Source of the DNA: Bacillota bacterium | GTDB taxonomy: Bacteria; Bacillota; Limnochordia; DTU087 | Length of the DNA stretch: 56,969 nucleotides | Direction of reading: 5' to 3' | Assembly (NCBI GenBank): GCA_012798695.1 | Contig: JAAZMR010000068.1 | Location: 1 to 56,969, forward strand | In this document: piece after piece, positions 35,704 to 46,897 of the stretch | Layout: each line of letters starts with the position of its first letter | Numbering within the stretch: position 1 is the stretch's first letter | Position numbers and translations under genes: made by a program | Notes under the pieces: generated by a model | What the model was told of the DNA's origin: nothing | Databases searched by the model: none | The model's input: the letters and a program-made list of their open reading frames with translations, nothing else

Positions 35704-36627
35704 CTATAGGGCAGGCGTCATGGAAAGCCCCGATACTCTTGCATCTCGCATAACTTCCACATAGAATTCGGTGCCCATCGGGATCACTACATCTTTCCCC
35801 TTAACGAACCAGGCTCCGGCTAGCCCAATCGGTCCCAAGAGAATGACTCCCGCCATACCGGCACCAGCAGCCAGTTCCAGGGATTTATTCTTTTCAGTAG
35901 CCTTTTCTTCCATAATCAATGATACAGAGCTGCCATCAATGGCCGGTAGTGTGCCAAAGTCCACCAATAGTCTTCCATCTACTCCTAGGCGCTTAGCAGT
36001 ATTGACCTCTTGCACCGTGCCTACACTCTCAGTACCAGCGATAATGACCAACCGATCTTTGATCATGACATCGTCCAAAACCCGATAACGGACCTTGTCA
36101 CCCACTTTGTTCTTGGAGCTATCTAGGTCATTAAGCAGTTTGATCTTCACTAAGGTCTCTTTCGGCACTGTGACAACATCGATATTCAGCTTATCTGAAG
36201 CCCACACCATCTTTAGGAGGTTATCCGCTCGCTCGATAACTGAACCTTCCTGAGCGGCACCATACATAGCACCCTCCAGCCGATCCAGGCGCGTATAAAG
36301 TGGATCCCCCATACTTGCTTCCTGGTATACCATCCATTCGACTGCATTGAGTTTGAGCTGTAGGGAGTTTTCACTACCGATTCCACTCATTAGGTAAGTA
36401 TTCAAATTCTCAATCCGAACCAGGATCGGGCCTGTCTTGGTTTCCCCAAATACATCATTCTCCAACTGGTCGAGTCGCTCGATGAGGGCACCTACTTTGG
36501 CCTTACCGTATAACATGATCTCGATCTGTCTGAGACTCTCCAATGGTGTACCAGAGTCTGCCCAAACCGGTGAAGCCATGACAAACAGCAAACAAATAAC
36601 CAGACCAAAAGCTACCGTTTTTCTCAT
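35704..36627 (-). CDS. Secreted protein with YG-type helical repeats, unknown function
   Basis: I do not recognise a named family. The 307-residue protein has a signal peptide (about 1-24, ending VWA-DSG). Residues about 28-150 carry repeats of the form LDxLExxxYGxxxxGxLxxR: MLYGKAKVGALIERLDQLE, VFGETKTGPILVRIENLN, and RLDRLEGAMYGAAQEGSVIE. A beta-rich domain follows (about 165-255: VPKETLVKIKLLNDL, VGDKVRYRVLDDV, IIAGTESVGTVQEV, DGSSVSLIM), then a Gly-rich hydrophobic hairpin (about 262-285). ATG 36627 has AAGGAGAG; the frame is open to 36702. It ends the unit led by SLH outer-membrane proteins, so a periplasmic or envelope-associated role is likely. That role is inference from context and signal peptide. 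Confidence 0.65.
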   Translation of the reverse strand: MRKTVAFGLVICLLFVMASPVWADSGTPLESLRQIEIMLYGKAKVGALIERLDQLENDVFGETKTGPILVRIENLNTYLMSGIGSENSLQLKLNAVEWMVYQEASMGDPLYTRLDRLEGAMYGAAQEGSVIERADNLLKMVWASDKLNIDVVTVPKETLVKIKLLNDLDSSKNKVGDKVRYRVLDDVMIKDRLVIIAGTESVGTVQEVNTAKRLGVDGRLLVDFGTLPAIDGSSVSLIMEEKATEKNKSLELAAGAGMAGVILLGPIGLAGAWFVKGKDVVIPMGTEFYVEVMRDARVSGLSMTPAL

Positions 36628-36726
36628 ATACCCAACTCTCCTTCCCCACACGTTACTCCCACTATCCGGTGCAACTCTCTTGTGCCCCATACCACCCGCC
36701 ACCCAACTGCAGGCAAGTGCCGCCTT

Positions 36727-38223
36727 CTAAAACCTGATTGACAGCTCAGCAGTGGCCACATTTTCTGGTTCATCAAGCTCCTCCGATTCAGTGAAGTCAA
36801 TCAGTTTATATCCAAAGACTAGAGTTGCCTCCTTCCGATAGTTATATCCCAAGCTGAGGCTAGTCCTTTTTTTATTTTGATCCATATCCTCCAAAGCCAC
36901 ACCTGCTTGCAGCACGGATTCGGAGTCCCAAGGCACTCTATGGGCCACATCAGCACTGGCGCCTCTTGTCGAAAGACGCCCGGAGGCCGCTTCTTGCTCA
37001 TATACTAAACCCAGACTCACACTGCCCTTGGGTACAGTCACTCCCACTCCTACAGTGCTCCGTCGTGTACTGCTTGGATCTTCACCATCCACAAGTTCAT
37101 CTATGTCTACATACCGATAGTCAGCACGCAAAACCAAATCCTCACTCAGGCCATATTGCAGGCCCACCGAGGTAACCGTCTCTGGTTCTTTGCCAATTTC
37201 ACCAGTCGGTTTTTGTGTCTCTCTACCGGTACTCAGTACCACATCTCTATACTGCAGCGAAACCTCGTAACCGGTTGCCTCTTTACCTTCGCCACCACTT
37301 TTGATCAGAGGATCGAATTGGGGCCGCACACTCTTATAGCTAGCGCCGACTTCTACGTCCCCCACCTTCATCTGCGCGCCTACCTTCATGGAGCTCGCGT
37401 CATCTGTATCCGATACTTCCGGGTTAGTCGCATATTCCCCTGATACCTTAACACCCGGCGTTACCTGGAGTTTACCTTCCAGAGCCGTCATCGACTTTGG
37501 CCTGCTTACCGCATCAGCATCAAAGGGATCATAACCTTCATCATAATCTCTACCCAAAAGCTTGCTAACCGTAGCTCCTAGTTCCCACCCATCCGACTTC
37601 CATACAGTGCTATCAGAGCTAATTACACTCCGCCATCCACTCAGACGGAAGGGCTCATCATTTTCCTCTTCATCCCTGGAAATCCCGTCGATTCCCTGCA
37701 AACGGGTCACACTGGGATCAAACATTAAGTCAAACTCCGCTGCACTTGGTGCAGGCCTAATTAGCCCTAGAGCGCGCAATTCGTCATTGAAGCCTTCTAT
37801 GAGGCGCTTTATCAGCTCCAGATGTTCATCGCCTAGAGTGCCCTTGCCAGGATTCGATTGCTTAGCTGCCGCAAACAGCTCATCAACCAGTTCCTGTTCC
37901 AACCCAGCTGACAGCAAAGCACTGCTCTCTTCTTCTAACCCGGGATTCCCGAGGTCGTCTAACCTTCTCAAAATCTTTGCCACTAATAAGGCCATCTCAT
38001 AGCGAGTTATGGAGTTCTGGCTATCAAAAAGTACATCAGACTGCGCTACCAGCGGAGTTTCTGCTAGCCTCTTTACCGCGGCATAGCTCCAGTGTCCCAA
38101 GGGTATGTCCATACTGTCTGGTTCGGAGGCATATGCAGGCGTGCTAAAACAGACCAGGCCCACAATTGTGACCATGATCACACTGATCAGCCTTAGTCTC
38201 TGTACTTGTAGGGCTCCGCGCAT
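36727..38223 (-). CDS. SLH-domain outer-membrane beta-barrel protein (porin-like)
   Basis: This 498-residue protein has a signal peptide (about 1-33), one SLH domain (about 39-88, with IPLGHWSYAAVKRLAE and SITRYEMALLVAKIL), a helical stretch (about 95-155) and then about 300 residues of alternating polar/hydrophobic strands broken by acidic turns. It ends in AELSIRF, whose final aromatic Phe is the beta-signal read by the BAM machinery. SLH-porins of this plan are known in Negativicutes, Cyanobacteria and Deinococcus-Thermus, where the SLH part binds wall polymers. ATG 38223 has AGGAGG at about 7 bases; the longer frame to 38316 lacks a site. It precedes the secreted repeat protein. The pore function is inferred. 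Confidence 0.82.
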   Translation of the reverse strand: MRGALQVQRLRLISVIMVTIVGLVCFSTPAYASEPDSMDIPLGHWSYAAVKRLAETPLVAQSDVLFDSQNSITRYEMALLVAKILRRLDDLGNPGLEEESSALLSAGLEQELVDELFAAAKQSNPGKGTLGDEHLELIKRLIEGFNDELRALGLIRPAPSAAEFDLMFDPSVTRLQGIDGISRDEEENDEPFRLSGWRSVISSDSTVWKSDGWELGATVSKLLGRDYDEGYDPFDADAVSRPKSMTALEGKLQVTPGVKVSGEYATNPEVSDTDDASSMKVGAQMKVGDVEVGASYKSVRPQFDPLIKSGGEGKEATGYEVSLQYRDVVLSTGRETQKPTGEIGKEPETVTSVGLQYGLSEDLVLRADYRYVDIDELVDGEDPSSTRRSTVGVGVTVPKGSVSLGLVYEQEAASGRLSTRGASADVAHRVPWDSESVLQAGVALEDMDQNKKRTSLSLGYNYRKEATLVFGYKLIDFTESEELDEPENVATAELSIRF

Positions 38224-38409
38224 TGGTGTCCCTCCTGTAATGCCCATAAAAGGCCACCCATCTCCCCGAACCAAATCATGCCCCAGAAGTCGTGATACCC
38301 TAGGATCTTTCTCCACTCTTACCAGTAAACCCTTTTTTGGCCTAGCGAGTATACTATTGGCAATATGTGGCTAACTCTGACCACGGCACCAGGCTTTAGT
38401 CACAATTCC

Positions 38410-38841
38410 CTACAAACCCAAGTAGCGTCTAGCTAAGATGACGGCTACATAGTCATCATATGGCTGATCTGGAACTTGCATACCCAAAGGAATGATTCGA
38501 TACAGCCATGATCCTGCTCTCCGCCGCTCTTCGAGGTAATACCGACGAGCTTCTTGGCTGGTCAGGTGCTCATCTATCGCCTCAACCCCTGCAACCAGCT
38601 CTGCTATGCCCTCTTGCTCGACCAGCTCCATGAACCTTTCGGCCCCGGTCCGATCTCCTACAACTACTAGTGCCGGGCTATAGTGCCTCGCTACTCCTCT
38701 CACCCTGCCCAGCAAGTCCTTTTCACGGACTATTTCTTGTAGGCGTATCTCACCATCTATGCTTACGACTGCTAATCCACATTTCTCGGTACCAGGATCA
38801 ATGGCGATGATGTACTTAAATTCTCTCTTCGCCTTATCCAT
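38410..38841 (-). CDS. YqgF/RuvX-like RNase H-fold nuclease
   Basis: This 143-residue protein has the YqgF/RuvX layout: IIAIDPGTEKCGLAVV (first catalytic Asp), VVVGDRTGAERF, EAIDEHLTSQEARRYY (acidic middle site) and YDDYVAVILARRYL (last Asp) at the end. The endings LPxGxxxPxxPxDD and KCG near the start resemble the cyanobacterial branch of YqgF more than Bacillus YrrK. YqgF proteins act in 16S rRNA 5' maturation and are structurally related to RuvC resolvases. The start at 38841 has AAGGATG about 14 bases upstream, a weak site. It sits between two outer-membrane protein genes, after a strong terminator, which is an unusual place for an rRNA-processing gene. Confidence 0.75.
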   Translation of the reverse strand: MDKAKREFKYIIAIDPGTEKCGLAVVSIDGEIRLQEIVREKDLLGRVRGVARHYSPALVVVGDRTGAERFMELVEQEGIAELVAGVEAIDEHLTSQEARRYYLEERRRAGSWLYRIIPLGMQVPDQPYDDYVAVILARRYLGL

Positions 38842-38882
38842 AGTTATTCCGACACATCCTTATTGGTCCCTAGATAGACAAC

Positions 38883-38907
38883 ACCCCCGGGAGGCACTCC
38901 CGGGGGT
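38883..38907 (-). terminator. Strong terminator after the OmpM-like gene
   Basis: ACCCCCGGGAG and CTCCCGGGGGT form a perfect 11-bp GC-rich stem with a 3-base loop, 30 bases after the stop. Only a short T-rich tail follows (TGTTGTCT). Confidence 0.75.
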
Positions 38908-38936
38908 TGTAAATCGCTAGTTCAGTCTAGATAGCT

Positions 38937-41900
38937 CTAGAACTCGAACTTGAGACCAGCATTGAGTTCGGTGGCCGTGTAATCGAAGGCTCGATCGTAA
39001 GCCTCGACATCGACATGACGGTAACCCAATTCTAGGTCTGCCACATCGTCGATGACCGGATAGGTCAACTTGACCTCAGCGATCTTATCGATCTCGGGGT
39101 CAGAACCTCCCCAGGCTCCCTCATCCTCGTCATACTTGGTCTTCTGTAGGTTGTTTGGTCCACCGGTCCTATACTGGTAGCTTGCATAGAGATTCGCAGT
39201 ACCGAAGTCTCGATCAGCACTGATTCTATAGGTCATGAGCGGATCTTCATACTCTCGACCATGCCTATCCATGTCAGAGGTGCGGTTCTCATAACCGACG
39301 AACCCGGTGATCGTGGTATCCCAAATCTCCACAGGATACTCAGCACTGAGCTTGAGTGTCTGCTCGGGAACGGCTTCACCCCAAGCTACTTCATCAGGTT
39401 CAGTGGTCTTGCTCTTGGTCTCTACCCAATCGCTCGGAGCGTCGAAGTCACTATCGATAGCATTGGTGGTGTACTCGTAGCTAGCAGCCAGCCCCAACTT
39501 ACCGAAGGTCGGCTCATAGGCTACCCGTCCCAAGAGACTGCTACCATCTTTGACTGCCGCATTCTCGATGTTAGCATACTCTGCACCAACGGTCAGCGGA
39601 ATCCCAAAGAGATCCTTCTTCTCGGCGGTGAACTTCATGGCGGTTACATCGGTCTTATCCTTAGTTGCGTTCCCGTCCTTAGTCACATACGCTCCGCCCA
39701 AAGTCAGTCCCAAAAGGTCGAAGTTGTCAGCCGTTAGCTTGAGATTGGATGTGTAGTCATCGATGCTTTTAGCAGTCAAGAACTTCGTATATCCATCGTC
39801 AACTGCCTTGTAAGTTACTTTCCACTGTGGCCGAGTGTCATCTTCACCTTCCTCGGGCTCAGGGCCGTATTTCTTACCGACAACGATCTTGTATCCAGAC
39901 TTCTCAGCATTGTTCGCTGCATAGGCTACTTCATAATCGGCAAAGTTCAACTTACCGTTTAGACCTAGGCTGTAGGCCCAATCTTGGATTGGGGCTTCCA
40001 TACCCGTGTTAGCATCCTCATCAAACCACATTCTGCCATACTGCAAATCAATGACGAAAGCATCACTTAGCTTATAGGCAGTATTGACCAGGGCGCCATA
40101 GTTGGCCAACTTGTACTGCAGTTCTTCGGGGTTCTCCTCTTCCTCACCTTTATCAGGCTCCGTATTCGGATTCCAGGGCCGGAAAAGCTGAACTTCAGTA
40201 TCAAGGTTGCCCAGTACTACATTGGCCGCCACTGCTTCCATGTCGTCCAAATCTTCATCATCATCCATGATGAACTCATTGTAGCGAGCGGCAATGTCAG
40301 GCCTTGTTCGCTGACCGGCAAAGAACCAGCGCAGTGCCTTATCTGTGTTGACTTCCAACTTGACGTCTTCTAATCCGAGCTCACCATCATCATCGATATC
40401 ACCAAAAATATCTGCAGTGCTAGCTAAGCCGGCCTTCACCGATACACCTTCAGCCGGAGTGGCTTCCAGGTTAAGTTCGAATTTCTGCTCTAGCTTAGCG
40501 GTGCGCTCATAGATCTCATCATCATCTTCGTCTCGGGGATCCTTGTAGACACCCTTGCGTTTTTCGACTTCCTTGTCACCAACTAAATACTGGTCATCAA
40601 TATCAATACCCACATTCTTAAACACGGTCTCAGTCGAGCCGGAAAGCTTTACTTTCTCATGCTCTTCTTTGAAGGTAGCGAAATCAGCTGCCGTAGTCTT
40701 CTGCTCTTCATCTACTACAGTCAACTTAGCAGCAGTTTCTGCGTGCTCATCTTCTAGAGCAGACAGGTCCTCTTCCAGCACCTGGTCAGCAGCTCTTAGA
40801 TCAGATATATCAGTAGCGGTAGTTCCCATCTCATCATCGAGCTTGGCAACTTGCCACTCTAAGAGATCGATGCGGGCAGTATTATCTTCAACAATATTCT
40901 CTAGATCGGCTACACGCACACCGAGGGAAGCTAGCTCAGCGCCAAATTCCTCGCTCAGAGCTGCGATTTCGGACTCCATAGCCTTAGTCGTGCTCTCCAG
41001 TAAGGCTGCTAAAGCGTCTACATCGCCTTCCAGAGCGGCTACCGTAATAGCCAAGCTGCGGACTTCCTGAGTCGCGGCTTCAGCTGCGGCTGCGGCTGCA
41101 TCAGCTTTTTCAGCTGCTGCGGCAGCGGCTGCGCCGGCATCTTCAGCACCCTTCAAGGCTGCTAAGGCTTGCTCAGTGGCCGTGGTGGCCAATGCTTTTG
41201 CCTCAGCGGCACCGGACTTGGCTTCATCAGCTTCAGCTAAGGCCATGTCAGCCTTCTTGTCAGCTACGGCAAGAATGGCGTCATTGACCTCCAGCCCGAA
41301 AGCAACCTCATCGATCAGCTTTCTGGCCTTAGCTACATCTTCCTGCAGCTCGGCAATATCCTCTGCATTTAGATCGGCGGTCGTCTGCGCGTTGGCTACA
41401 GCGGCCAGCAACCCCTGCAGATCCCTAGCTGTGAGTTCCGGCTCGATCTCAACTAGTTTTTCCACAACTTGTGGCTCCAGCTTAGATACATTCTCAGCCA
41501 CTGCGTCAGCTGCAACCTTGGCAATAACTGCTTTGGCCTCATCGGTGAGCTCGAATGGCTGGACAACCTCGACTGGCTTCTCCACGACCACGCGCTCGAC
41601 AACTTTAGCCTCAGGCAGCTCTACGCCGGCCAGTTCCGCTTCAATGGTGGCGGTCAGGTCAGCTTTAACCTTGGCCATTTCTTCGACCAGAGCTTGGGCT
41701 ACTTTGTTGTAGATGTCATCAGACATGCCCTCTACCTCAGCGCCAACTTCCGCAGCAATGAGGGTATCCAGGCGACCCAGTACTCGTGCAAATACCATGG
41801 CCATCTCATACCGTGTAAACTGTCTTTCTCCCTTAAAAGTTCCATCCGGATAGCCGATGATCAGACCTGAAGCAGCCAACTCGGCTACACTATCATAGGC

Positions 41901-42011
41901 CCAGTGATCCTTTGGTACGTCGGCAAAGGGCATACCTGCTGCAAATGCCGGCATCACCAAAGTAGCTACCATGATTATCGCTACTACTAACGCTAAACCC
42001 TTTCTATTCAT
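38937..42011 (-). CDS. OmpM-like SLH / coiled-coil / beta-barrel outer-membrane tether
   Basis: This 1024-residue protein is built in four parts. A signal peptide (1-25) is followed by an SLH domain (29-80: FADVPKDHWAYDSV, GYPDGTFKGERQFTRYEMAM). A helical region (about 105-450) is rich in Ala, Glu and heptad-spaced Leu/Val, with a poly-Ala stretch near 290-315, and is expected to form a long coiled coil. A beta-barrel (about 454-1024) has acidic turns and ends in NAGLKFEF with C-terminal Phe. OmpM proteins of Negativicutes share this plan and hold the outer membrane to wall-linked polyamines or polymers through SLH. ATG 42011 has AAAGGGGG; the frame to 42110 has no site. It has a long leader and its own terminator, and is probably highly expressed. 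Confidence 0.88.
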   Translation of the reverse strand: MNRKGLALVVAIIMVATLVMPAFAAGMPFADVPKDHWAYDSVAELAASGLIIGYPDGTFKGERQFTRYEMAMVFARVLGRLDTLIAAEVGAEVEGMSDDIYNKVAQALVEEMAKVKADLTATIEAELAGVELPEAKVVERVVVEKPVEVVQPFELTDEAKAVIAKVAADAVAENVSKLEPQVVEKLVEIEPELTARDLQGLLAAVANAQTTADLNAEDIAELQEDVAKARKLIDEVAFGLEVNDAILAVADKKADMALAEADEAKSGAAEAKALATTATEQALAALKGAEDAGAAAAAAAEKADAAAAAAEAATQEVRSLAITVAALEGDVDALAALLESTTKAMESEIAALSEEFGAELASLGVRVADLENIVEDNTARIDLLEWQVAKLDDEMGTTATDISDLRAADQVLEEDLSALEDEHAETAAKLTVVDEEQKTTAADFATFKEEHEKVKLSGSTETVFKNVGIDIDDQYLVGDKEVEKRKGVYKDPRDEDDDEIYERTAKLEQKFELNLEATPAEGVSVKAGLASTADIFGDIDDDGELGLEDVKLEVNTDKALRWFFAGQRTRPDIAARYNEFIMDDDEDLDDMEAVAANVVLGNLDTEVQLFRPWNPNTEPDKGEEEENPEELQYKLANYGALVNTAYKLSDAFVIDLQYGRMWFDEDANTGMEAPIQDWAYSLGLNGKLNFADYEVAYAANNAEKSGYKIVVGKKYGPEPEEGEDDTRPQWKVTYKAVDDGYTKFLTAKSIDDYTSNLKLTADNFDLLGLTLGGAYVTKDGNATKDKTDVTAMKFTAEKKDLFGIPLTVGAEYANIENAAVKDGSSLLGRVAYEPTFGKLGLAASYEYTTNAIDSDFDAPSDWVETKSKTTEPDEVAWGEAVPEQTLKLSAEYPVEIWDTTITGFVGYENRTSDMDRHGREYEDPLMTYRISADRDFGTANLYASYQYRTGGPNNLQKTKYDEDEGAWGGSDPEIDKIAEVKLTYPVIDDVADLELGYRHVDVEAYDRAFDYTATELNAGLKFEF

Positions 42012-42501
42012 CCAGTTTAACCCCCTTTTGATCTCGCTTCTCCTTATCACCGGAGTCCCGGACCAAATCCAGGGTTCGAAGAGTGAGTGACCTTGTTTCC
42101 TCACAGACAACCTTGGATTATGTAACGGAACTCCCTTATGCCCATCAGTGTAAGCAGTCGTGTCTTCTTCGGGGGTGCACCTCCTTCCCTGCCACCTGCT
42201 TTAGATAGGCATAACTAGGCATAGTTTACCTGTATTACTAGTATTTCGTGGAGAGTAGGAAAAATCCTTCCCGAACGTCCATAAAATACTTGGGTTTTTC
42301 TGGAACGAAGCCATGAATTCTATGAATCAACGAGAAGTTCCTAATCAGTGATGCGACTTGTGGATAGTCAAGTGAGAGAAGCTTTCTGCTTTCTTCAATA
42401 TATTACTACGATGCGAAAACTATAATCCCTTCCCATGTTATGGATCAGTGATGTTAAATTAACATAACCCCAGCCTCGGTCTGATCAAGCATAGGGTTAG
42501 C
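42012..42501 (-). promoter_or_regulatory. Long leader/promoter region of the OmpM-like gene
   Basis: This 490-base gap separates the barrel-less SLH gene from the OmpM-like gene. It contains a perfect 15-base palindrome, ATGTTAA-A-TTAACAT (42451-42465), an 8-base direct repeat TAGGCATA spaced by 10 (about 42217-42234), and several -10-like boxes on the minus strand (for example TATAGT near 42417), but no convincing full promoter. The palindrome looks like an operator. No coding frame with a ribosome site was found. Confidence 0.4.
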
Positions 42502-43461
42502 TCAATCAGTGGTTCTACCTAGGAAGTAGGATGTCAAAAGCCCTGCCGGCCTTCTATTGGTCATGTCCGGCTGTAGCTTCAGGCTTTCCCCCTTGAGAGT
42601 AGCAGCCGCATCCAACGGCGCTTGCAGCATTTCACCTTGCTTCTCAAGAGGCTGATCATATAGAGCAGTTACTTCCACCGGTGCATAGATCTCTCTTGGC
42701 TCCTGCCGGTTCGCCGCGATCATACTCCCCCACTGCATTGCTTGCTGCTCTTGAGTCTGCACTGTATCACTATGAGCATGCCATATGCTGGCCCTGAGTG
42801 GCCGCACCTCAACTGCTAAGCTATTAGATAGAGTGAATCCGTTCGTACTGACCGATACGGGAAGAGTAATCTCCAACAGTTGTGTAACACCTAAACATGC
42901 CAGTATCTCTTGTTCTAGGCTATGGCTGTTGATTGAGCCCTGCCCCCCATTCCCCCTTCTAGCATCTACATTACTTTCTGATGCTGTAATCGAGGGAACA
43001 TTAGCTGCAAGTTCTGCTTGAACAATCCCCAATGCATCAAGCTCACTGCTAAATTCTTCTGCTAGGCGGGTCAAAGCCCGAGAGGCGCCTTCTGAATCCC
43101 GGCGAGCCCGGGCCACAGTCTGAGGGGAAAGGCTGACCTTGTCACTCTTGGCTCTGGCCTCTAGGATCTCCCACATCAGCTTATCTGCAGATATGGCTAC
43201 CTGTTCATAATCTTCCTCGTCTAGGGTCATCACCTCGCCTACTAGAAGAGCTACCTCGTATCTAGTAAGGGGAAAAACCTTGGCTAGCTCTTCTGCGCCA
43301 TCATATTCCCTAAACAGATGGGCATCAGCTAAGAGGGTCAAATCTTCATATGCCCAATGGCCCTTGAGCAACAGATCAAAAGAGGCAGCAGTCACCGACG
43401 GGATTGCCGTCATGATCATCAGGCAGCATGCTAATATACTATATATTGCCGGCCGTTTCAT
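42502..43461 (-). CDS. Secreted SLH-domain protein lacking a beta-barrel
   Basis: This 319-residue protein has a signal peptide (about 1-26) and an SLH-like domain (about 30-78: LLLKGHWAYEDLTLLADA, FPLTRYEVALLVGEVM). A helical stretch (about 80-150) ends in EEFSSELDALGI, closely matching NDELRALGLI in the SLH-porin at 36727, so the two share N-terminal modules. After a Gly/Asn/Ser linker (about 160-185) the rest is Gln/Glu-rich with a few possible strands and ends in FLGRTTD, without the C-terminal aromatic of a barrel. The ATG at 43461 has AAGGTGG upstream. It may be a degenerate porin or a periplasmic wall-bound partner of the OmpM-like protein encoded next. Confidence 0.7.
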   Translation of the reverse strand: MKRPAIYSILACCLMIMTAIPSVTAASFDLLLKGHWAYEDLTLLADAHLFREYDGAEELAKVFPLTRYEVALLVGEVMTLDEEDYEQVAISADKLMWEILEARAKSDKVSLSPQTVARARRDSEGASRALTRLAEEFSSELDALGIVQAELAANVPSITASESNVDARRGNGGQGSINSHSLEQEILACLGVTQLLEITLPVSVSTNGFTLSNSLAVEVRPLRASIWHAHSDTVQTQEQQAMQWGSMIAANRQEPREIYAPVEVTALYDQPLEKQGEMLQAPLDAAATLKGESLKLQPDMTNRRPAGLLTSYFLGRTTD

Positions 43462-43582: not shown

Positions 43583-43609
43583 AAAAAACCCCCGGGAGTA
43601 ACCGGGGGT
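43583..43609 (-). terminator. Factor-independent terminator after the lpt/DUF3084 operon
   Basis: ACCCCCGG and CCGGGGGT form an 8-bp stem; on the minus strand TTTTTT follows. It lies about 20 bases after the DUF3084 stop and closes the LPS operon. Confidence 0.88.
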
Positions 43610-43628: not shown

Positions 43629-45032
43629 CTACTGGGTAGAATCGGCTGGTGCTGGTTCTACCACCAACCTGACCTTCAAAGGACCAACTGCAGTCCAAAT
43701 ATTGGTATCAGCCACAGCACTCACCAGTGCCGGTCCCGATAAGCGACGTACTGCTGCCATCGCATTGAGAAATTCATCGACACTGACATCTCCAACCGAA
43801 CCATCGGCTTTGGTGACCATGCCTTTTTCCAGTCCAGTAATGCTGAGATTCTGCAATAGGCCAAGTAATGCAGCTTCAATATCTGCCGGATTCTTCGTAG
43901 TCACAACAGTGGAACTCACCACTTCCCCTTTGCGGTAAATTAACTGATTGGGGTAATACATGAGTCTGACAACCACTGGATCGCCCACTAGAGTATTACT
44001 AATGGATACAGCCCTGACTACGAAGCGATCGTGTTCAGAGGCCAATATTTGCACTACCTGATTGAAATGCTCCTCAGATTGCACCTTCACTGCACTGGTC
44101 TTACCATCAATACTGGCGCCTCGGGACAAGGCCAACCGATCCACTTGCCTCAAGAAGACCAGCAATTCATCTCGGGCCTGTTCCGGTGAGATACCGCCAT
44201 CGATGATCGTCGCCAAGAGAATCTCACCACTTTGAAAAGCGAAATCTCCGTGCTGAATCTCCTGCAATCGCTTGGTCGCCTCAGTAATGATATCCTCCTG
44301 CCGGCGGATATAGGTTTCATACTCCTCCGATAGTAGTGCCATCTGTTCACGCATACGTTTCTCTGTTTCTTGCTGTTCTTTAATCCGGGCATCTAATCGC
44401 TCATTGATCTGCTTCATATTATCATAGCGCTTTTCCTCTCGAGCCAATTGAGTAATGGCTTCATTGAGCTGTGCCCTGGTAGCGTTCAAATCAGATTTGG
44501 CTTTCTCCAGATCTGATGTTGCCTGCTCGTACTGCTGTTTGGCAGCTTCATACCGTTCGCTGATCCCCTGTAACGCGTTCCGAGCATCATCCAGCTCTTG
44601 CTGTACAGCATCACGCTGAACTACAACCATTTGCAGCTGCTGATCAAGTTCTTCATACTTTCGTGTTTTTTCTTGGATCTGCATGGTCAGCTCTGCTGCT
44701 TGCTTTTCTTGTGCAACCAGTTGGATCTCCACTTCATCCAGCTGCGTTTTCGTAGTCTTGTACAAAGCCTCACTTGTGGCTAGGGCTTCCTTAATCTCTT
44801 TCATATGAAACAAAGCTGTTCGCACATCTTGAGAGGCAATGGTGAGGGTCGCTATAGAAGCCCCGGCAATGATTATCCCAGTACAGATGGTAATGATCAC
44901 GGATGTATGTTTGGGGCGCAACCCAAATAAGCTGAGACGACTGCGGCCTACCTTCATCCCGATCTTGTCACCTAGGTAGGCAATAATACCACCAACCAAG
45001 ACGAGCACAGCTATCAGAGTAATCCCATACAT
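43629..45032 (-). CDS. DUF3084 membrane coiled-coil protein
   Basis: This 467-residue protein opens with two membrane helices (about 3-22 and 46-68) flanking the diagnostic block GRSRLSLFGLRPKHTS. A coiled coil of about 170 residues (85-255) follows, rich in Gln, Glu and Ala, then a globular domain (about 270-450). This is the plan of DUF3084 proteins, best known from Cyanobacteria and a few diderm Firmicutes. ATG 45032 has AAAGGTGG; the frame is open to 45068. It follows the LptG-like gene by 60 bases and precedes the operon terminator. A long coil anchored in the inner membrane could reach across the periplasm, so a helper role in LPS transport or envelope spacing is plausible, but untested. 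Confidence 0.85.
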   Translation of the reverse strand: MYGITLIAVLVLVGGIIAYLGDKIGMKVGRSRLSLFGLRPKHTSVIITICTGIIIAGASIATLTIASQDVRTALFHMKEIKEALATSEALYKTTKTQLDEVEIQLVAQEKQAAELTMQIQEKTRKYEELDQQLQMVVVQRDAVQQELDDARNALQGISERYEAAKQQYEQATSDLEKAKSDLNATRAQLNEAITQLAREEKRYDNMKQINERLDARIKEQQETEKRMREQMALLSEEYETYIRRQEDIITEATKRLQEIQHGDFAFQSGEILLATIIDGGISPEQARDELLVFLRQVDRLALSRGASIDGKTSAVKVQSEEHFNQVVQILASEHDRFVVRAVSISNTLVGDPVVVRLMYYPNQLIYRKGEVVSSTVVTTKNPADIEAALLGLLQNLSITGLEKGMVTKADGSVGDVSVDEFLNAMAAVRRLSGPALVSAVADTNIWTAVGPLKVRLVVEPAPADSTQ

Positions 45033-45092
45033 CCTTTCACCACCTTTCTGTGCCAACAAAACTCCCATAACAATTTACTAAGCTCTGAAAAC

Positions 45093-46181
45093 TTAGTATC
45101 TACCAGCTCGCCTCATCAGGCCGATACCCATTACCCCCAAGATGATGTTCTGTGACCAAGCCCCTAGGATAGGAGGTAAATACCCACCTTGAGCCAAAGC
45201 ACAACCAGCAGTCATAATCACATAGTAAATAAAAATAACGATAATACTGAGTCCAAAACCAACTGAAGAAGCGGACCGATGTGACTGAAGACCCAAGGGA
45301 GCGCCTACTAGAGCAAAGACTATACTCGCCACAGGAATGGCCCATTTCAGGTGCCATTCTACCTCCAGTTTCTGGGTTTCCTTTCCCTGAGACCTGAGAA
45401 TCGCCATATGCCGGGAAAGCTCCCTGATATTCATCTCATCCGGGGATTTCTGTGATGCCATGATTTCTCTTGGTTTCTGCCCGATATCTACAGGTTGTCT
45501 GCCTCCTGCAAAGCGCATGGTAACGGTCTCACCGGCATCATCATAGAAATGTGTAATCCCATTCTCCATAAACCAGCCTGCTTCATCCCACACAATCTTG
45601 GGAGCATATGTGGTCTCTTGGGGCCTGCCGTTTTCCAGGCTAACCATGGTCACATCTTCCATGACCTGTGATTGGCTGTCGAATCTAGCGGCATACAGAA
45701 ACCACTGTAAGAGACTACCCCTATACTTCTTAAGAATAACATTCTTCGTTACCCTCGGCAAGGTTTGCCCCCGCATCTCTGCTTCGGTCAACTTATATGC
45801 AGCATTAGCCGCTGGGACCACGGCTTCATTGATTATCAATGTAACACCCGTCATCAAAACACCGATCAAGAGTGCGGGGATCGCTATCCTATAGAAGCTT
45901 ATTCCCCCGGTTTTCATGGCCACAATTTCACTGTTGGCCGATAGCCGACTCAGTGATAAGAGCACGGAGAGCAATACCGCCATAGGAAATGTCCATACGA
46001 TGATCTGGGGTAGTTTTAAGACAAAGAGTTTAGCAATGACAGATAAGGGTGCACCTAAGTTCATGGCAATGGTAACTAGACGCAGCAAATCCGTCCCTAC
46101 AAACAGGCTGGTAAAAGCACAAATGCCAAAAACCATCGGCATGGCCATCTCTCTTGCCACATAGCGATCGAGAATTCTCAT
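45093..46181 (-). CDS. lptG: LptF/LptG family LPS export permease
   Basis: This 362-residue protein belongs to the YjgP/YjgQ family. Three N-terminal helices follow [11 protein letters not shown], the block [16 protein letters not shown] is the conserved coupling region that contacts LptB, a periplasmic beta-jellyroll spans about residues 130-265, and three helices close the protein. LptF and LptG usually form a heterodimer with an LptB dimer to pull LPS from the inner membrane. Only one copy lies in this operon, so it may be a homodimer, as suspected in other phyla with one gene, or a partner lies elsewhere. It overlaps lptB by ATGA. I cannot tell LptF from LptG. Confidence 0.88.
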
Positions 46182-46897
46182 AGACTGAACCGCTCTCCCA
46201 GGTAAAACTTACGGGCTATCTCATTATTGGCGATATCTGTCGAGGTACCGGCAACCAAGATGCGGCCTTCATGCATTATATAAGCTCGATCAGTTATGGC
46301 CAAAGTCTCTCTTACATTATGATCGGTGATCAGTATCCCCAGCTCCTGGCTTTTTAGGTGAGCAATAATCGCCTGCAAATCGGCCACAGCAATGGGATCC
46401 ACACCGGCAAAAGGCTCATCCAGAAGCAAAACCGCAGGTTCGGTAGCCAAAGCCCGGGCAATCTCAGTGCGCCGGCGCTCGCCTCCAGACAACATGAATG
46501 CCTTGTTATGCCGCACACGATTTAGGTCAAATTCATCGAGCAACTCTTCCAGTCGGTGCTGCTGCTCTGTTTGTGTCAAGTCCATCAACTGCAAAATCGC
46601 TCTGATGTTATCCTCCACCGTCAGTTTGCGAAAAACCGAAGCTTCCTGCGGCAAATATCCGAGCCCCTGTTGAGCGCGAAGGTGCATCGGTAATGAAGTA
46701 ATATCTTCACCATTCAGGTAAATTCGGCCTGCCTCGGGTCGCTCCAAACCGACGATCATGTAGAAGGTGGTAGTCTTGCCCGCACCATTAGGACCCAAAA
46801 GGCCCACTACTTCACCCTGGTTGACCTCTAAGCTGACATCATCTACCACTTTGCGGCCATGGTATGCCTTGGCCAGATTGGTTGCTTTTATGGCCAT
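46178..46897 (-). CDS. lptB: LPS export ABC transporter ATP-binding protein LptB
   Basis: This 239-residue ATPase is of standard LptB length and sequence: Walker [13 protein letters not shown]-loop [20 protein letters not shown], signature LSGGERRR, Walker [18 protein letters not shown] and switch [10 protein letters not shown]. The run [12 protein letters not shown] is typical of LptB and differs from amino-acid importers of the LivF type. It powers LPS extraction by the LptF/G-like permease whose gene it overlaps (ATGA). The start at 46897 has AAGGTGG upstream. It lies downstream of the UDP-sugar epimerase gene by 70 bases. Confidence 0.95.

Follow-up and report, generated by a model that had tools for sequence, protein, structure and literature searches.

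OmpM proteins have been shown experimentally to be both tethers and porins in Veillonella, and W34, G58 and the TRxE motif of the surface-layer homology (SLH) domain have been tied to ligand binding (PMC10628300). In 2016, the Halanaerobiales were described as having an outer-membrane gene cluster that encodes OmpM and as many as three SLH proteins (PMC5007114), and OmpM was noted in Limnochordia in 2022 (PMC9388160). At the RNA level, an 'SLH' riboswitch candidate was reported from Synergistaceae, Clostridia and Negativicutes, about 60% of its examples lying upstream of SLH proteins and the rest upstream of unknown proteins (PMC6429828); this was the only report that we found in the literature on leaders of outer-membrane proteins (OMPs) in Negativicutes. 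Here we analyze a stretch of 56,969 nucleotides (JAAZMR010000068.1, assembly GCA_012798695.1; hereafter the window) from a Limnochordia-like member of the Bacillota. The window is one contig of a 2.68-Mb genome and encodes three SLH proteins, among them an OmpM, together with a structured leader of the ompM mRNA.

42502..43461, minus strand: short SLH protein, 319 aa, no predicted barrel (profile, Foldseek, AlphaFold2 (AF2) model, alignment)
42030..42250, minus strand: structured ompM mRNA leader with two domains (conserved blocks, consensus fold, minimum free energy (MFE))
38937..42011, minus strand: OmpM-type tether-porin, 1,024 aa, ATG-started (Pfam SLH, profile, AF2, fold matches)
36727..38223, minus strand: SLH-derived porin, 498 aa (Porin_4 and OmpM1-SLH profile matches)

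We read the locus as the OmpM section of an outer-membrane gene cluster of diderm Bacillota. It is a local form of the known OmpM system, by which diderm relatives of Clostridia anchor the outer membrane to the cell wall. Because that cluster and the OmpM of Limnochordia had already been described, the finding of three SLH genes is mostly of a known kind; new here are the outer-membrane target set of the leader, its link to Omp85 and the Limnochordia-like members. The explanation that we consider probable overall is that OmpM is the tether, that the 498-aa protein is mainly a pore, that the 319-aa protein is an accessory, and that the ompM leader is of a type shared among OMP mRNAs.

Compared with the described systems, the window OmpM has the same build as OmpM1 of V. 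parvula (PDB 8bym/8bys/8bz2; PMC10628300), with a signal peptide, one SLH domain, a helical stalk and a C-terminal barrel. The two proteins belong to the same SLH sequence family and both come from diderm Firmicutes, but the window OmpM has a stalk several times longer and a larger predicted barrel (about 26 strands, against 16 in OmpM1). SlpA of Deinococcus radiodurans (PDB 7zgx; PMC9388160) likewise combines SLH, a long coiled-coil stalk and a very large barrel; it differs in having 30 strands and a shorter stalk, its barrel starting at residue 254. Omp-alpha of Thermotoga maritima (PMC3387000) also has SLH and a long coiled coil. Its C-terminal transmembrane (TM) helix recurs in relatives of family f6 and in a class-wide paralogue, whereas the window protein ends in a barrel. 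The clusters of Halanaerobiales and Negativicutes (PMC5007114) similarly place several SLH/OmpM genes beside genes for lipopolysaccharide (LPS) and outer-membrane biogenesis, but the window represents a Limnochordia-like class in which DUF3084, RuvX-like and 332-aa genes are fixed, and it has an SLH member without a predicted barrel.

The predicted OmpM tether-porin

The first-pass annotation had listed three SLH proteins, and all three reading frames are present on the minus strand with the lengths that it gave (1,024, 498 and 319 aa). It had read the longest as an SLH, coil and barrel protein, a reading that our sequence analysis and model support. After a signal peptide, this protein carries a single canonical SLH domain (HWAY, GYPDG and TRYE), matched by Pfam SLH in one stretch at 44.8 bits (cut-off 20.8). 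Against solved structures, the OmpM family profile matched V. parvula OmpM1 at 9e-30 and D. radiodurans SlpA at 8e-21. The AF2 model of the mature protein consists of helices at 43-427, a predicted stalk of about 385 residues, followed by about 26 strands at 430-999 and a terminal F, and the barrel strands have mostly high predicted local distance difference test (pLDDT) scores. Foldseek searches with this model returned outer-membrane barrels at E of about 1e-9, and its VIA alignments with SlpA, the Mtr complex barrel and ushers covered about 330-450 residues (Z 12-14).

OmpM relatives were found in 60 of 61 genomes. Among the 33 sequences sorted as OmpM, GYPDG was present in 29, the four exceptions being three f10 proteins and one stray fragment of the 319-aa family, and G58 was kept in all 29 sequences scored. 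Stalk lengths varied from about 235 residues to more than 1,150 in family f11; these are rough estimates, as a simple heuristic misjudged some proteins, including the window OmpM, for which the AF2 boundaries were used instead. Heptad periodicity was not above shuffles in the window OmpM stalk and was clear in the giant f11 stalks.

Homology, model and motifs thus support a role in both tethering and pore formation, and the 1,024-aa protein is predicted from sequence and structure model to be a canonical OmpM-type tether and porin, the sole canonical tether of the three. Its barrel would sit in the outer membrane, its long helical stalk would span the periplasm, and its single SLH domain, present in three copies in a presumed trimer, would grip the wall.

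Several variants of this architecture were observed. In family f6, the ompM position is occupied by proteins with SLH and a coiled coil in which a C-terminal TM helix replaces the barrel (L051:8352-9410(-), L058:6441-7526(-), L060:8401-9636(+) and L061:8281-9402(+)); this arrangement is a natural split of tether and pore. The window's own genome encodes on another contig (L052:6517-8109(-), G000:C15) a 530-aa protein with SLH, a coil of about 420 residues and a C-terminal TM helix, and paralogues of it occur class-wide (e.g., L141). The OmpM-slot proteins of f11 reach 1,878 aa (L131:3259-8895(-)) and 1,837 aa (L132:7118-12631(-)), and their helical stalks of more than 1,150 residues would exceed 170 nm if straight. 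In genome G007, ompM lies in two overlapping frames (L045:1271-4305), reflecting a frameshift or an assembly error.

The ompM leader RNA and its putative outer-membrane targets

The leader upstream of ompM is about 490 nt long. In the window it lies between the 319-aa gene and ompM; conserved non-coding blocks make up this region in five family members, including a locus (L042) that lacks the 319-aa gene. Of the 71 pairs in the two-domain consensus fold of the leader, 16 are changed on both sides, and the window leader folded better than shuffled sequences (MFE z-score -2.24). Rfam gave no match to the ompM leader at the gathering threshold or up to an E of 5. Across 12 related loci, the sole Rfam match was to Cyano-1 and below threshold (30.3 bits, cut-off 41, E 0.3); it overlapped one hairpin and may be due to chance. 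Two elements of the leader could be delimited.

42073..42114, minus strand: leader hairpin GUGAG-GAAACAnGGAnA-CUCAC, covariance model R1 (covariation, phylum-wide placement)
42178..42186, minus strand: element A, AAGGAGGTG, complement of the 16S rRNA 3' tail, with no start codon after it (AAGGAGG count)

The hairpin, in the form gUGAG-GAAACAnGGAnA-CUCAc, recurs in the OmpM leaders of many families, and its outer stem pairs covary in 23 ompM leaders. Over 87 distinct hairpins, covariation was 0.502, compared with 0.182 +/- 0.014 in shuffled and at most 0.193 in slid alignments. Element A precedes the hairpin by 57-118 nt: AAGGAGG was found in 59 of 79 leaders, where 1.7 would be expected by shuffling. 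It often reads GAAAGGAGGTG, which is complementary to the 16S rRNA 3' tail. A leader peptide behind element A was rejected, an ATG at suitable spacing being present in only 2 of 67 leaders. Because no start codon follows it, element A may be a ribosome standby site or the site of a second regulator.

We ran model R1, built from ompM leaders alone, on 151 and then 398 genomes. Nearly all distinct hairpin places in the fetched loci (104 of 107) were upstream of an open reading frame (ORF) that encodes a signal peptide, and an aromatic C-terminus was seen in 74 of the 75 complete ORFs downstream of a hairpin; both features occurred together in 29 of 211 control ORFs from outer-membrane loci. The best phylum-wide matches were likewise upstream of ORFs with a signal peptide and an aromatic end in all 19 testable cases. 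The targets include OmpM of several classes, some homologous to V. parvula OmpM1 (VpOmpM1) over nearly the full length, and the Negativicutes-like OmpM genes carry the hairpin. An SLH motif was present in 52 of 136 ORFs downstream of it. Flagellin leaders were considered at tandem second loci and rejected; the downstream ORFs there encode signal-peptide proteins with aromatic C-termini. Within the window's own genome, matches were confined to ompM and two genes on contig C17, the SLH porin and the 319-aa gene having none.

The distribution of the hairpin follows that of Omp85. Among the 398 genomes, 102 encoded Omp85, 74 had the hairpin (E <= 1e-3) and 67 had both (Fisher p 2e-41, with relatedness ignored). 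Matches fetched from six of the seven hairpin genomes without Omp85 had no ORF with a signal peptide and an aromatic end and look like chance; the seventh genome (G425) has such an ORF, and other members of its family carry Omp85. These results suggest that the leader type is common to mRNAs of OMPs in Omp85-bearing Bacillota, as a shared control switch. The ompM leader would then coordinate the synthesis of the major OMPs at the mRNA level.

What may read the leader

The leader is predicted to bind an RNA-binding protein, with CsrA as the first candidate, or a small ligand, altering ribosome access. One possible explanation, which we nevertheless regard with some doubt, is that the hairpin is a CsrA/RsmA binding site and that ompM and the major porins belong to a CsrA regulon. 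Its loop, ACAnGGA, resembles the high-affinity ANGGAX loop (PMC4005645), GGA also occurs within the AAGGAGG of element A, and csrA is present in the window's own genome and in most of the class. However, the loop is about 12 nt long rather than a hexaloop on a short stem closed by C-G/U-A, 13 of the 87 hairpins have a base other than A in the third position of GGA (GGA in 74), and the fixed AAC is left unexplained by CsrA binding. Moreover, genomes G073 (99% complete), G111, G084 and G103, which are drafts, have the hairpin upstream of OMP-like genes but no full csrA match.

Another possibility, which we think unlikely, is that the leader is a metabolite riboswitch, namely the 'SLH' candidate of Stav et al. 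2019. The gene association and taxa are similar (PMC6429828), and the leader is structured in two domains, but the part conserved phylum-wide is small and no ligand is known. Whatever reads it, the ompM leader is probably the same element as this orphan candidate, the two being likened by description and not by sequence: both are structured RNAs ahead of genes for SLH or unknown proteins in Firmicutes, including Negativicutes. Our analysis differs from the earlier description in that the targets are recognized as OMPs and the element follows Omp85.

The SLH porin and the short SLH protein

The 498-aa protein had been annotated as an SLH porin, and its porin character is supported: it matches Pfam Porin_4 at 38.3 bits (cut-off 27) and ends in F, and its relatives were found in 61 of 61 genomes. 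Its SLH domain is divergent. The claim that all three proteins carry SLH holds at the level of profiles, with matches to the OmpM1 SLH at 9e-30 for the 1,024-aa, 1e-18 for the 498-aa and 1.4e-12 for the 319-aa family, but Pfam scans detected SLH in neither of the two smaller proteins. Among the 35 porins scored, the GYPDG loop was present in none and Gly58 in seven, and porin stalks were mostly about 45-100 residues long, compared with several hundred in OmpM (a rough measure). The 498-aa protein thus appears to be an OmpM paralogue whose sequence supports a pore; its attachment to the wall is doubtful because GYPDG is lost, Gly58 is mostly lost and the stalk is short. With a head derived from SLH that lacks the canonical ligand residues, it would be mainly a pore, and if the OmpM stalk is fully extended, the porin stalk would be too short to touch a wall kept at the distance that the long stalk sets.

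It is distinctly unlikely, in our assessment, that the porin is a second real tether whose divergent SLH binds the wall through the kept W34, Y36, R64 and Y65. W34 and Y36 are retained in 28 of the 35 porins and R64 in 29, and the OmpM of Negativicutes likewise departs from the usual ligand (PMC10628300), but the complete loss of GYPDG, the rarity of G58 and the difference in stalk length speak against it.

The 319-aa protein has a signal peptide, a divergent SLH domain, and a helical stalk piece ending in EFxxELxxLGI. Its C-terminal half is of low confidence and closes, according to the alignment, with the conserved motif RPxGLLTSYFLxR. Foldseek placed its model closest to the OmpM1 SLH crystal structure 8bz2 (probability 1.00 but E 0.065). 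The AF2 model, a low-confidence one built from 8 sequences, has SLH-like helices at a pLDDT of about 80 and residues 148-319 at about 30; no barrel was predicted in it and there is no terminal F. In profile comparison, this family was nearer to the porin, at a score of 146 over 135 columns that take in the stalk end EFxxELxxLG, than to OmpM (115), and GYPDG occurred in none of nine short SLH proteins. The protein may be an offshoot without a predicted barrel, closest to the porin and acting as an accessory.

Of the proposed division into tether, pore and soluble wall-bound part, the tether-pore role of OmpM is supported by homology, model and motifs, and the pore of the porin by sequence. The lack of a predicted barrel fits a soluble 319-aa protein, but its SLH is divergent, and canonical SLH residues are present only in OmpM.

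The slot for the short SLH protein is patchily filled. Within its own family, the 319-aa protein has full-length relatives; looser ones are present in G011, G051 and perhaps in G061. In f12 genomes, the slot holds a short SLH protein whose end consists of a few strands. Short SLH proteins with only about four terminal strands and an OMP-type end (L123:9464-10765(-) and L124:7374-8570(+)) might form a shared trimeric barrel.

Gene order and neighborhood

The SLH genes follow a minus-strand block for lipid A synthesis and LPS transport that encodes LpxA, LpxI, LpxB, an MsbA-type ABC transporter, LptB and LptF/G. After this block come DUF3084, the 319-aa gene, ompM, the RuvX-like gene, the 498-aa porin gene and the 332-aa gene.

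46178..46897, minus strand: LptB ATPase (TIGR04406, 370.6 bits, over cut-off)
45093..46181, minus strand: LptF/LptG permease (Pfam LptF_LptG, 308 bits)
43629..45068, minus strand: DUF3084 coiled-coil protein, closing the Lpt block (Pfam DUF3084, 105.6 bits)
43588..43609, minus strand: terminator-like hairpin after DUF3084 and before the 319-aa gene (8-pair GC-rich stem, then TTTTT)
38410..38841, minus strand: gene for a RuvX-like nuclease fold, located between ompM and the SLH porin gene (Pfam RuvX, 29.0 bits, just below the cut-off of 29.2; synteny)
35704..36702, minus strand: 332-aa protein, conserved but of unknown family, encoded after the SLH porin (conserved position)

Synteny analysis showed that the order LptB, LptF/G, DUF3084, [short SLH], OmpM, RuvX-like, SLH porin and 332-aa gene is recurrent across the class, indicating more than chance. 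The RuvX-like and 332-aa genes are fixed members of this OmpM cassette class-wide and have no known envelope role; the 332-aa protein had no match in Pfam and NCBIfam scans. Named close relatives of the DUF3084 gene come from metagenome-assembled genomes of Bacillota, one of them labelled Clostridiales DTU087. These relatives, together with the outer-membrane gene cluster, are the grounds for calling the genome Limnochordia-like.

The neighborhood with the LPS genes, from which the first-pass annotation had drawn a putative link between wall attachment and LPS delivery, is thus real and conserved. Since ompM has its own leader of about 490 nt and a terminator-like hairpin follows DUF3084 and precedes the 319-aa gene, the three SLH genes are probably not one operon; matches to the terminator-like pattern were overall about as frequent as in shuffles. 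Nor do the genes lie directly in a row as had been claimed, the conserved RuvX-like gene splitting the 1,024- and 498-aa genes. That the three proteins form one attachment set, co-expressed and coupled to LPS delivery, is very improbable: they share SLH ancestry and lie in a conserved neighborhood with lptB, lptF/G and lpx genes, but the short SLH protein is missing from most class genomes and from some of its own family (as in L042), the RuvX-like gene intervenes, the terminator-like site and the ompM leader suggest separate transcripts, and canonical SLH is restricted to OmpM.

Elsewhere, the same genome encodes Omp85, LptA/LptC-like proteins and a pyruvyl-transferase family protein. On another contig (L146, G000:C99:1-20000), genes for LptA/LptC-like proteins, a second LptF/G, LpxD, an OmpH-like protein and Omp85 occur together, and this group is probably the rest of the outer-membrane cluster. 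A single polysaccharide pyruvyl transferase family protein (L143, G000:C17:40349-41191; 132 bits) is a possible maker of the SLH ligand.

Weight of the evidence and implications

Several observations weigh against the explanation favored here, in which OmpM is the tether and its leader type is shared among OMP mRNAs. For the targets, the control set is small and was itself taken from outer-membrane loci, and the 84 of 136 downstream ORFs without SLH belong for the most part to two clusters of homologues (68 and 13 members) and are not independent. The barrel nature of these non-SLH targets rests on the signal peptide, the C-terminus and weak family matches; two cluster members in the window's own genome (L209) have such weak matches to barrel families. 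The surveyed genomes are related, so that the Fisher value overstates the evidence. The hairpin seeds were chosen by pattern, and the fixed core letters are therefore partly a product of construction; the outer stem lies outside the pattern. For the proteins, much of the OmpM stalk model has low confidence, and the model is that of a monomer; the divergent SLH domains may recognize another ligand instead of having none.

Based on our data, the orphan 'SLH' candidate is reinterpreted as a probable leader of OMP mRNAs. In a broader scenario, diderm Bacillota (Limnochordia-like, Negativicutes-like and others) would share one ancestral leader on OmpM and porin mRNAs that reads the state of the envelope through an RNA-binding protein or ligand, sets OMP synthesis, co-regulates tethering and pores, and was lost together with the outer membrane. 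This scenario is tentative, and we lean slightly towards doubting it.

OmpM has been proposed as an ancestral tether of the outer membrane, and monoderm bacteria may have arisen through its loss. To the known forms of this tether, the present analysis adds stalks of very great length, a barrel predicted to have 26 strands, and orthologues that carry a TM helix in place of the barrel. The leader element would replace the vague wall-related guess about an orphan riboswitch candidate by the concrete hypothesis of an OMP regulon. If true, such an element, tracking the outer membrane through the Bacillota and marking the mRNAs of OmpM and porins, would provide a handle on outer-membrane control.

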